40,674 nt of DNA from Candidatus Tenebribacter burtonii. GTDB lineage: Bacteria; Cloacimonadota; Cloacimonadia; Cloacimonadales; TCS61. The stretch's first letter is position 1. Each line of letters opens with the position of its first letter. The stretch lies in contig JAVCCF010000026.1 in assembly GCA_030765625.1 (NCBI GenBank), positions 1 through 40,674 of the forward strand. The letters are read 5' to 3'. The notes beneath the pieces were generated by a model. That model did not search any database. It worked only from the letters and a program-made list of their open reading frames with translations, and had not been told where the DNA came from. Below, piece after piece: positions 3,549 to 33,015 of this stretch. The position numbers and the translations under genes were made by a program.

Positions 3549-3700
3549 CGTCACTCTGAGGAGTATCCTTGCTGTTTCTCTTAACGAAGAGTTGAAGGAA
3601 AGACTGTGTGATTGTTTTATTAAAGCATATCCTTCCTTAAGAGAACAACGCAAAAGATTCGTCCAGCCTTCGCCAGCTTCGGCTTGGCAAGCAGGATGAA
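3549..3700. repeat. Dispersed palindromic intergenic repeat, family A
   Basis: cgtcactctgaggagtatccttgctgtttctcttaacgaagagt ... atccttccttaagagaacaacg ... gcaggatga; same modules at 8.5-8.9, 30.15, 31.1 kb. Confidence 0.75.
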
Positions 3701-8583: not shown

Positions 8584-8674
8584 TATAATATACTTTGTCT
8601 ATCCTTCCTATGGAGAACAACGTGCAAGACTCGTCAGGATGACGAATGTGGATGGAGAGCAACGTGCAAGGTTT

Positions 8675-8754
8675 GTCCAGTCTACAATAAATCGGCTTTG
8701 CGAAGCAAAACGATTCTTCTTTTACTAAGCTTCGACGAGGCAGGCAGGATGACG
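8675..8754. repeat. Dispersed repeat family D, copy 1
   Basis: gtccagtctacaataaatcggctttgcgaagcaaaacgatt...caggatgacg; second copy at 31867-31946, same length, about 90% identical by eye. Confidence 0.88.
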
Positions 8755-28536: not shown

Positions 28537-29754
28537 TTATGCTTCATAGTATCTATTATTAATTACTGCTCCAAATTTTCCTTTTGTAGTTTTTTTTGAA
28601 TTTGTAATATTCTTCATACTTTTTTTTCTAAAATTATTAAGCTTATATGCAGTTTCTTCTAAAAAAGATCCTACTTTCCAAATTCTGTCTTTTTCTGCTC
28701 TTAATTCAAGATAAACATTTTCTACTTTATCCCAATATGGATAATAGTATATCTCATTTAAATTGTAATATCCTAACCTATTGCGATCATACCATTTATT
28801 AATTAACAAATTCACATTTTCGCTTGGATCAAAATCTAAATCGTAAAGTTCTTCTGTGTTATCTTTTTTATTGAAGATGTATTTATATTTATCATTAATT
28901 ATTGCGAGTTTTCTGTTTTCTTGTAAATAGTATTGAGTATCGGAATAAACATAATTTAATTTTTCAATCTTATTGTTTAATATTATATCTTTTAACTGGG
29001 TATTACTGGTTGGAAAATCTATCGTTTTATTATTACCAATTCTTGGGGATATAAGGAAAATACTAATCGTTCCTTGATATGCATGGAAACCATAAACAGG
29101 AATTCCTTTATCTCCGTTCATATGTCCATGATCGGCGCTTATGTAAATGGAGTTATCGTCAAAGCTTTTTCGTATTTCTCCAACGAAACTATCCAAAAGA
29201 TCAATATCACTTCCATAACTCGTTCTACCATTTATTACGTGAGGTAGATGAACCCAAAGAAAAAAATGTTCATTATTATTTATGATATAAGCAATTTTAT
29301 TTAGAATAAGATTTATAGTACTTAACGCTTTGTTGTCGTCTTTCACAATTTTTCTTTGTACATTTCGAATAATATTTTGCGAAATATTCTTAAGAAGAAT
29401 AACCGTTGTTTCTTTTGGAAAGACTTTGGAATATTTCCAAGCTAATTCCTTCCATTCAAAAGGCCAAATCACAAAAGTTTTGTATCCTTTCTTGTGAAAT
29501 TCATCAAATAGCGTTTCCCCTTCTTTATACTCATCAACTTCTTCATATTTTTTTCTTTTAACTTCGAAAGAATTCTTTCCAGCAAACATAGAGGTTATAG
29601 ACATAGCTGTTGATGTACCTGCAGTATAATGTTTATTGAAAATTGTACCTTTTACGGCTAGTTCATCTATATTCGGAGTATTCCAGTATTTATTTCCATA
29701 ACAAGGTAAATGATCTTTTCTCAATGCATCTTTAGTGATTAATATTTTTTTCAT
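28537..29754 (-). CDS. Alkaline-phosphatase-superfamily (sulfatase-fold) enzyme
   Basis: DALRKDHLPCYGNKYWNTPNIDELAVKGTIFNKHYTAGTSTAMSITSMFAGK; ISADHGHMNGDKG. Confidence 0.82.
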   Translation of the reverse strand: MKKILITKDALRKDHLPCYGNKYWNTPNIDELAVKGTIFNKHYTAGTSTAMSITSMFAGKNSFEVKRKKYEEVDEYKEGETLFDEFHKKGYKTFVIWPFEWKELAWKYSKVFPKETTVILLKNISQNIIRNVQRKIVKDDNKALSTINLILNKIAYIINNNEHFFLWVHLPHVINGRTSYGSDIDLLDSFVGEIRKSFDDNSIYISADHGHMNGDKGIPVYGFHAYQGTISIFLISPRIGNNKTIDFPTSNTQLKDIILNNKIEKLNYVYSDTQYYLQENRKLAIINDKYKYIFNKKDNTEELYDLDFDPSENVNLLINKWYDRNRLGYYNLNEIYYYPYWDKVENVYLELRAEKDRIWKVGSFLEETAYKLNNFRKKSMKNITNSKKTTKGKFGAVINNRYYEA

Positions 29755-29905
29755 TGGTCTTCCTTAAAATGTTCTTCATAATTTTACATTTTAAATTTTC
29801 AATTTTAAATTGTTCTTTCTATTCTTTCTCCGACATCCCTCTACTGGATAGGAGAGGGAACGTGGATGAGGTGGATTTTGCTTTTCACATTTCCCTTCTC
29901 ACATC

Positions 29906-31012
29906 TCACTTATTTTCTTGAAACTCTTTCACAAGCTCTTCCAAGAAAATTGGAGCCGTTCCAATTTTACCTACTTTTATGCCGGCTGCATGATTTGCCA
30001 GAATGGCTGCATTATTAAGAGTAGCTCCGCAACTTAAAGCCAGGGCAAGTACGGCAATAACTGTATCACCTGCACCGGAGACATCGTAAACTTCTTTGGC
30101 AATCGTAGGGATGTGAGAAACTGATAAGTGTTGAGTGGTGATTGTTGATCCTTCCTTAAGAGAACTACGTGAAAGATCCGTCAGGATGACATCATTTTTC
30201 TTTAACTCCCCCTCTTTGTTCAAGAGAGGGGCTGGCCTGTCGGGGCGTAGCCTTGGCGAAGACCGAGGGGTAAGTCGCTCAAACACATACATCCCATCAG
30301 CACCGGCTGTAATGATAATATCGGAATCAAATTTATCAACAAGTACTTTTCCTGCTTTAATAAGATCTTCTTCTGATTCAATAATAATTCCGCTCATCTC
30401 TTGAGCTTCTTTTTTATTAGGAGTTACCAGAGTTGATCCGGAATACCATTCTTTATGCTTCGGTTTGGGATCAACAATTAGTAAAATATCATTTTCTTTA
30501 GAGAACTGGATCAGTTGTAATATCAATTGTTTGGTTATTGCACCTTTAGCATAGTCAGATATAATAATAGCAGAAAGATCTTTAACTTCTTTTAGCTTAT
30601 AAATAAATTTGTCTTCCACATGTGTCTCGATGTAATCTGTATTTTCATAATCAATTCTAAGCAATTGTTGATTGAGTCCAATTACACGAGTTTTACGGAT
30701 CGTTGTTTTATTATTATCTGTAATAATACCCAAAGTTGGAATATTCATTTCCGCTGTCTTACTTAAAAGAATATCTTTGTACTGATCATTCCCCACAATA
30801 CCAAATAGGAAAGGATTCCCACCCAGAGTAGAAATATTTGCAGCAACATTAGCTGCACCACCCGGAACATATTTTTCTCTTAATACCCGAACAATAGGAA
30901 CAGGCGCTTCTGGTGATATACGGTCAACTTCTCCATAGACGTATTTATCCAGGATGAGATCACCGATCACAGCAATTTTCTGGTTTTTAAATTTCTTTAT
31001 TATTTCTTTCAT
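29906..31012 (-). CDS. rfaE1: D-glycero-beta-D-manno-heptose-7-phosphate kinase (PfkB family) carrying a repeat-derived in-frame insertion
   Basis: IAVIGDLILDKYVYGEVDRISPEAPVPIVRV; VPGGAANVAANISTLGG; YDVSGAGDTVIAVLALAL. Confidence 0.93.
   Translation of the reverse strand: MKEIIKKFKNQKIAVIGDLILDKYVYGEVDRISPEAPVPIVRVLREKYVPGGAANVAANISTLGGNPFLFGIVGNDQYKDILLSKTAEMNIPTLGIITDNNKTTIRKTRVIGLNQQLLRIDYENTDYIETHVEDKFIYKLKEVKDLSAIIISDYAKGAITKQLILQLIQFSKENDILLIVDPKPKHKEWYSGSTLVTPNKKEAQEMSGIIIESEEDLIKAGKVLVDKFDSDIIITAGADGMYVFERLTPRSSPRLRPDRPAPLLNKEGELKKNDVILTDLSRSSLKEGSTITTQHLSVSHIPTIAKEVYDVSGAGDTVIAVLALALSCGATLNNAAILANHAAGIKVGKIGTAPIFLEELVKEFQENK
30147..30190. repeat. Family A repeat fragment inside rfaE1 coding sequence
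   Basis: gatccttccttaagagaactacgtgaaagatccgtcaggatgac; compare 3631-3665 and 8603-8643. Confidence 0.85.
30200..30275. repeat. Family B palindromic repeat inside rfaE1 coding sequence
   Basis: ctttaactccccctct..ttcaagagaggggctggcctgtcggggcgtagccttggcgaagaccgaggggtaagt; intergenic copy at 32937-33015. Confidence 0.92.
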
Positions 31013-31048: not shown

Positions 31049-31276
31049 CTTCGATACAATCCGGTACTTACCGTATCACTCAGGATGACGATAAATTTCC
31101 CCGTCTCTCTGAGGAATCTACTTGCCCTAGTGGAATTGTGCTTCACACACCTGTTTCACAGGATTCCACAGGGCTTGCTGTTACTTCTAACGAAGAGTCT
31201 GGAAAAAGATTAAATATTTCTTTTTTAGTCTCTCCTTCCTATGAAGAGCAGCGTGCGAGACTCGTCAGGATGACGA
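31049..31276. repeat. Family A palindromic repeat cluster
   Basis: atccttcgatacaatccgg...caggatgacg followed by cgtctctctgaggaatctacttgcc...acgaagagtctgga...tccttcctatgaagagcagcgtgcgagactcgtcaggatgacg. Confidence 0.75.
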
Positions 31277-31391: not shown

Positions 31392-31866
31392 ATAATAACT
31401 ATTAGGTCAATATATTATTTATATAATAATTTTTTATGGTAATTTGTATTTGCAATATTTTGACTTATTAAAAATAATTAATTTAAATGTAAATAATTTA
31501 TAAAATACCTGATATTATTTTTACCGTTGCAATCTTCTGTATTAACTATTAAAATAAGATTCTTAAAATAAAGATATAATATCAAAGTATTTTTATCTTT
31601 TTTATTAACATTTTTCAGTTGAAAGTTCCAATGCGGAATATATTAAGTTTGTAAGATTTTACTTAATGTAATGTTATGGATAATTTATATAACCTATTCT
31701 TCTTTTTCTCCATCACTCTGCTTGCCAAGCCATAGTTCACAACAAAGTCTGGAGAAATCTTTTTACTGATCTTTGAACGAAGAATCTGGGAAAAGATTGA
31801 ATAATTGTTTTTAACTTATCCTTCCTTAAACACCTGCCCTTCTGAATAACTTGGGGTGAGAGACTC

Positions 31867-31946
31867 GTCCAGTCTTCAATAAATCGGCTTTGCGAAGCAA
31901 AACGATGCTTCTTTCGCTAAGCATCGACTTGGCAGACAGGATGACG
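31867..31946. repeat. Dispersed repeat family D, copy 2
   Basis: gtccagtcttcaataaatcggctttgcgaagcaaaacgatgcttc...caggatgacg; 80 bp, homologous to 8675-8754. Confidence 0.88.
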
Positions 31947-32929: not shown

Positions 32930-32936
32930 GATTAGT

Positions 32937-33015
32937 CTTTAACTCCCCCTCTAATGGGTTTAAGAGAGGGGCTGGACTGTCGGGGCGTAGCTTTGGCGAA
33001 GACCGAGGGGTGAGT
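32937..33015. repeat. Family B palindromic repeat (intergenic copy)
   Basis: ctttaactccccctctaatgggtttaagagaggggctggactgtcggggcgtagctttggcgaagaccgaggggtgagtt. Confidence 0.92.

Follow-up and report, generated by a model that had tools for sequence, protein, structure and literature searches.

Dispersed repeats in frame, and presumably translated, within a predicted surface loop of a heptose-7-phosphate kinase of Candidatus Tenebribacter burtonii, and at the same loop in related Cloacimonadota

The window (the whole stretch of 40,674 nt analysed here, to which coordinates without a contig label refer) belongs to a MAG-like assembly of 181 contigs, hereafter the source genome or G000. Its minus strand harbours, at positions 29906 to 31012, an open reading frame of 368 codons with an insert in frame, which encodes a stand-alone kinase of the HldA/RfaE1 type. 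In a profile search TIGR02198 matched the protein with 1.3e-102 in two stretches, the best of which covers residues 5-246, and PfkB matched with 5.4e-43; the GAGD motif is present, and the solved HldA structure 4e84 was recovered by phmmer and Foldseek. Because the insert splits the profile match, the whole-protein score of 343.2 bits falls 1.8 bits short of the curated TIGR02198 cut-off of 345. Fold, core length and the GAGD region are those of HldA/RfaE1 (PDB 4e84), from which the kinase differs by 48 additional residues in the hairpin that precedes GAGD; in 4e84, 5 residues lie between the blocks aligned to the flanks of the insert. A preliminary description of this DNA had labelled the gene as rfaE1/hldE, but the bifunctional HldE identity was ruled out, since the nucleotidyltransferase rfaE_dom_II (TIGR02199) is encoded apart from the kinase, in a 163-aa frame of a different contig (G000:C79:53506-53928). 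Seven of nine same-genus genomes (G001, G003-G006, G008, G009), some of them incomplete assemblies, gave no kinase match at E<=1e-30, and rfaE_dom_II was detected in every one of these seven (in G004 as a weak fragment only). Judged from these searches, the kinase step may have been lost or replaced in some genomes of the genus.

The insert-bearing loop comprises residues 246-299 (RLTPRSS...HLSVS; 30116..30277, minus strand) and stands in place of a 6-aa loop (KTSTHN in the same-genus species G002, whose orthologue is the closest one free of an insert), as seen in the orthologue alignment, the comparison of loops and the AlphaFold model. It is composed of two unrelated repeats and a third piece. 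Repeat 1 (LPRS-type, CCCCTCT...AGAGGGG; 30200..30275, plus strand) encodes LTPRSSPRLRPDRPAPLLNKEGELK on the minus strand. Nested in it is the segment TGTCGGGGCGTAGCCTTGGCGAAGACCGAG (30238..30267, plus strand), at the equivalent place of which the sister species G007 carries another segment. Repeat 2 (F1 family, TATCCTTCCTTAAGAGAACAACGTG..CGTCAGGATGAC; 30142..30190, plus strand) encodes VILTDLSRSSLKEGS on the minus strand. The third piece is an AT-rich filler at 30116..30141, encoding TITTQHLSVS on the minus strand, its counterpart in the loop DNA alignment being filler of G007, G031 and G029; its TTQHLSV part resembles the AT-rich filler common in these spacers, a likeness that is weak on its own. 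The main claim of the preliminary description, that two different repeats lie in frame within the kinase gene, thus holds, since the frame is open and both repeats are found elsewhere in the genome.

When the segment 30190-30282 was searched against the whole 2.81-Mb genome, one other match was found, at 32936..33015 on the plus strand (E=2.6e-23, 89% identity). It is an intergenic sister copy of repeat 1 in the same orientation and with the same nested segment, which had been proposed at 32937-33015, and it is the sole one, 2.7 kb from the loop copy. A pattern search of the 2.81 Mb allowing up to 3 mismatches returned the same two places, one genic and one intergenic, and the reversed control returned 0. 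Repeat 2 belongs to a larger family. Its membership, suggested previously for 30147-30190 from copies at 3.6, 8.6 and 31.2 kb, was supported by nhmmer for 30142-30190 (3.9e-5), and the three intergenic copies lie on the plus strand at 3622..3673, at 8594..8645 (the reference copy) and, directly upstream of the kinase, at 31225..31276. In the sampled 1.54 Mb (55% of the source genome) we found 31 non-overlapping copies, of which one, that in the kinase, is inside a gene, although 87% of this DNA is coding by our own hexamer-based gene calls on the same sample (binomial p=6e-26). Genes are therefore nearly free of the F1 family, the kinase copy being the exception. Within repeat 2 there is also one constant site, GACTCGTC^CAGGATGACG, at which differing hairpin segments are found per copy and per species (8664-8754, 31856-31946; L004:1383-1425), as if the repeats carried exchangeable tips.

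Both elements had been called palindromic, which is weakly true. Repeat 1, as the only one of the two, has a short stem formed by an inner 7-bp inverted repeat (CCCCTCT/AGAGGGG), but neither repeat 1 (z -0.35) nor repeat 2 (z -0.01) folds better than shuffled sequences, and a reading of the two as strong palindromes was rejected on these values. As to a possible MITE, the inverted repeat of repeat 1 is an inner one, and the loop DNA is too diverged for target duplications or insertion boundaries to be read from it, and a search of the kinase region against Rfam gave no family.

The kinases of related Candidatus Cloacimonadota MAGs were collected by whole-genome searches and from public contigs, with one genome per species. 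In orthologues without repeats the loop has 5-8 residues (KTSTHN in G002, KGKESQ in G015, KGKEPV in G036, and about the same size in the others examined), so that the segment of about 48 aa is absent there; the 54 aa in the source genome against 6 in G002 correspond to a net gain of 48 residues, the size which had been estimated. In a scan of 73 kinases of the phylum, 67 deviated from the short form by -1 to +2 residues and one (G094) had +12 residues and was counted apart from the large inserts, which are confined to five genomes in three genera of one family: G000 (54 aa), G007 (~73), G031 (~38), G029 (~33) and G021 (~26). According to the loop DNA alignment, these five loops are differing repeat mosaics with a layered build. 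Repeat 1 (CTCACCCC...CCTCTCTnnnnAGAGGGGGAG) is present in the loops of G000, G007 and G031, with the nested segment GGTCTTCGCCAAGGCTACGCCCCGACAGGCC in G000, GGTCCGCTCCGCCACGGCGGA in G007 and none in G031. Among the kinase loops, repeat 2 is limited to G000 and the LP2 repeat (CCCCCTTnnAAAGGGGGAAnnAAAGGGGGTT), which has 22 matching places in the genome of G029, to G007. A piece resembling GKRDKVKGVREKE is common to the loops of G007, G029 and G021, and a 39-nt piece is common to G007 and G029 at 95%. A single ancestral insert for all five was rejected because repeat 2, LP2 and the nested segments are lineage-specific. Full independence of the inserts was rejected as well, because the G031 loop was acquired by recombination (see below) and G007 and G029 share a piece.

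In G007, the loop copy of repeat 1 has a full-length partner at 97% about 1 kb upstream of the same gene (C56:1514-1576). G000 and G007 are thus alike: the full-length copy that matches the loop copy best, or is its only match, is a direct repeat less than 3 kb upstream with the same species-specific nested segment, which implies that sequence was copied or converted locally between loop and spacer. The kinase of G031 (L005, G031:C298) is G021-like up to residue 223 and G007-like thereafter, the breakpoint lying just upstream of the loop. At the best split, the discriminating sites agree with G021 and G007 in a ratio of 161:17 up to residue 223 and of 12:44 beyond it (Fisher p=1e-22), and identity windows along the gene were examined alongside these counts. 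The 5' tree strongly rejects a grouping of G031 with G007. For the short 3' part, grouping G031 with G021 is 8.2 log-likelihood units worse and is not rejected by the AU test (p=0.117). We read the G031 kinase as an inter-genus recombinant, with the loop and the 3' end coming from a G007-like donor of another genus.

The core of the kinase evolves under purifying selection, with a dN/dS of 0.13 between G000 and G007, both of which bear inserts, and of 0.11-0.17 in other pairs. There are no stops in the gene in any of the five insert-bearing genomes, and their catalytic GAGD region is intact. In the AlphaFold models the pLDDT of the core is mostly >90, and it is <50 in the insert, at residues 251-283 in G000 and 250-311 in G007, where the low-confidence residues sit between the two strands of a hairpin. 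The best PDB match of the G000 model in Foldseek is the HldA of B. cenocepacia (4e84; TM 0.75/0.88). From the pLDDT pattern and the position in the hairpin, the insert is predicted to be a disordered hairpin tip outside the core, with the HldA fold intact, in agreement with the surface loop that had been anticipated. Based on the open frame, the dN/dS values and the model, we infer that the kinase stays functional, and the repeat-derived peptide is presumably translated.

In-frame repeats are not limited to the kinase. Five genomes of four genera (g1, g13, g10, g7) have LP2 in frame within threonine synthase, always at one and the same loop, namely G007 (L265), G031 (L264), G018 (L270), G039 (L272) and G035 (L277). 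The corresponding peptides are of the type KGELKGV or KGEQKGV, IPLLKGELKGVK and IPIHKGESKGVF among them, and in other relatives the enzyme has unrelated sequence at this loop. In WecB (L244-L263), a loop contains AACTCACAACTCACAACT-type filler in G007, G001, G033, G015 and G009; the kind of filler varies by species (NSQLTTHNSQL or NLKFKIENLKL), and the length of the loop is roughly kept, so that replacement instead of insertion may occur in this protein. The WecB of the source genome (C18:4728-5783) has the filler AATTTAAAATTGAAAATTT, which among the intergenic DNA sampled is most similar to the spacer directly downstream of the kinase (29754-29905; E=5.8e-6, which is near the noise of the reversed control), a match with moderate support. 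The WecB loop is probably made of intergenic-type filler in the same pattern as the kinase loop. Further, a repeat encoding CHPELVEG (TGTCATCCTGAGCTTGTCGAAGGA) is present at the same turn of five T9SS C-terminal sorting domains of the source genome (L099, L121, L159, L163 and C83:38961-40256), and its other copies are intergenic; it is possible that the five arose by paralogous copying of one event. These recurrences in other genes were missed by the preliminary description, as were the other repeats at the kinase loop in other genera and the recombined loop of one relative.

Two single proteins are mentioned here as observations. The valine-tRNA ligase of the source genome (L078:10777-13503) contains, before the ITVATTRPE motif, the stretch PLKEPVILSGDEGDKTIEYI (PVILSGDEGD), which looks like a translated repeat and whose match is near noise. 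In G007, a protein of 630 aa without an NCBIfam match (L240:100-1989; G007:C2) begins like a lipoprotein and includes a long stretch of translated repeats (LTPNPSLKKEG, VILHAG..SLARSSLKEGS, LTPPVILSGVEGS), seemingly of several families. In a general comparison of gene interiors with intergenic DNA in the source genome, 49 of 1026 gave a match against 32 in the reversed control, with the kinase strongest by far. The weak matches are therefore mostly noise, and a match was counted on its own only if better than ~1e-6. Some of the strong ones (L139, C75) look like fragments of pseudogenes or paralogues.

The closest known counterparts are the Rickettsia palindromic elements (RPEs; Ogata et al. 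2000, 2002), dispersed repeats which are found in intergenic regions and in frame in conserved enzyme genes (reviewed in PMC2229807 and PMC10969869). One guanylate kinase that contains an RPE is translated and active, its affinity being changed (PMC2229807). The repeats described here likewise occur both between genes and in frame in protein-coding genes. They differ in that the pieces are ~45-80 bp long (the two repeats of the kinase ~50 and 76 bp) and fold no better than chance, with a short stem in repeat 1 only, whereas RPEs have 105-146 bp, long stem-loops and terminal inverted repeats (PMC2229807). Moreover, a single loop here combines several unrelated families, the pieces recur at corresponding loops of different genera, repeat 2 is genic in 1 of 31 copies as compared to nearly half of the RPEs (PMC10969869), and the host is a member of Candidatus Cloacimonadota, outside Rickettsia. 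The kinase repeats were not classed as RPEs because length, stem-loop and host do not fit, RPEs being compared by their published description. The parallel drawn earlier is consequently retained for the behaviour, for which comparative, codon and structural evidence speaks, and abandoned for membership, as the families taking part are several and unrelated and neither a long stem-loop nor terminal inverted repeats could be detected. The protein-coding palindromic repeats of Wolbachia and the QMITEs of Coxiella (PMC5896051) and the 107-bp Correia elements of Neisseria (PMC2229807) are likewise small, non-autonomous and joined to genes in frame; in the sources consulted they are described as a single element per gene, in contrast to the multi-family mosaic loop found here. 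In a non-exhaustive search of the literature we found neither such a mosaic loop described nor inserts that recur at one codon position in several genera, and a limited search returned no prior report of translated repeats in Cloacimonadota. The kinase insert is best described as a multi-family, apparently accreting and recurrent loop insertion outside Rickettsiales, which is RPE-like in its working.

We consider it likely that the dispersed repeats are near-neutral, that most coding DNA is purged of them, and that they build up in frame at a small number of permissive loops, the kinase remaining functional and the peptide being a passenger. Several unrelated families of short repeats populate the intergenic DNA of this Cloacimonadota lineage and would also enter genes, from which selection would remove nearly all copies. 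The beta-hairpin turn before the GAGD active-site segment may be one of the few sites where added residues are harmless, provided that the net gain is divisible by three and the frame stays free of stops. An initial insertion would have created a disordered loop, which could later have gained further repeats, some of them nested, in part by local copying to or from the neighbouring intergenic copy, and the loop may have moved between genera by recombination. The translated peptide would then be near-neutral, and kinase function would be retained.

An adaptive peptide, selected for a new binding or regulatory property of the kinase, would explain why an insert was kept in five species across large synonymous distances and why the loop was exchanged between genera; since sequence, length and composition vary among the five inserts, which are predicted by AlphaFold to be disordered and are lacking in the close relatives G002 and G015, we regard such a role as unlikely. 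That the gene is a decaying pseudogene, still open by chance, is very improbable. The missing kinase match in most genomes of the genus (7 of 9 at E<=1e-30) speaks for it and implies that the kinase is dispensable there, or replaced, but the core dN/dS of 0.11-0.13 between the insert-bearing and the other same-genus species, the 0 stops in five genomes and the intact GAGD region are against decay. Misjoins do arise at repeats, and with 181 MAG-like contigs one has to think of an assembly artefact. It is hardly credible here, because the in-frame insert shares its codon position with differing inserts in four further genomes, the public records of which stem from several isolate series (CSMAG, E21), and because frame and flanks are kept repeatedly across genomes. 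Finally, the G+C-rich inverted repeat in repeat 1 could point to an RNA element in the mRNA or to post-transcriptional removal of the insert by splicing or translational bypass. Removal would make the maintained, stop-free frame unnecessary, and with 0 Rfam families in the region and folding no better than in shuffles, we give this explanation next to no weight. The preferred reading thus remains that of a near-neutral passenger accumulating in a permissive loop.

It is tempting to speculate further that certain enzyme loops of this bacterial family (the HldA hairpin, those of threonine synthase and WecB, and others) could be standing landing pads for intergenic repeats, kept as disordered peptide, and at the same time recombination junctions between genera; we put this forward tentatively, as a possibility that is rather less probable than its opposite.

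Genomic repeats that are translated have been described chiefly in Rickettsia and in a few host-associated bacteria, and tend to be considered a curiosity. In the present case the lineage belongs to the Cloacimonadota, known from metagenome-derived genomes, and the same loops are affected in several genera. The kinase also illustrates that such inserts can drop a genuine enzyme beneath an annotation cut-off. The loops form a natural series (empty, simple and nested) in which the conversion of noncoding DNA to protein and the tolerance of enzymes could be studied, and which is also suited to asking whether repeats seed intragenic recombination. It appears that in these bacteria 'junk' repeats are continually made into protein where a surface loop tolerates them and, if such loops are indeed landing pads, the evolution of 'intergenic' sequence would go on within proteins.
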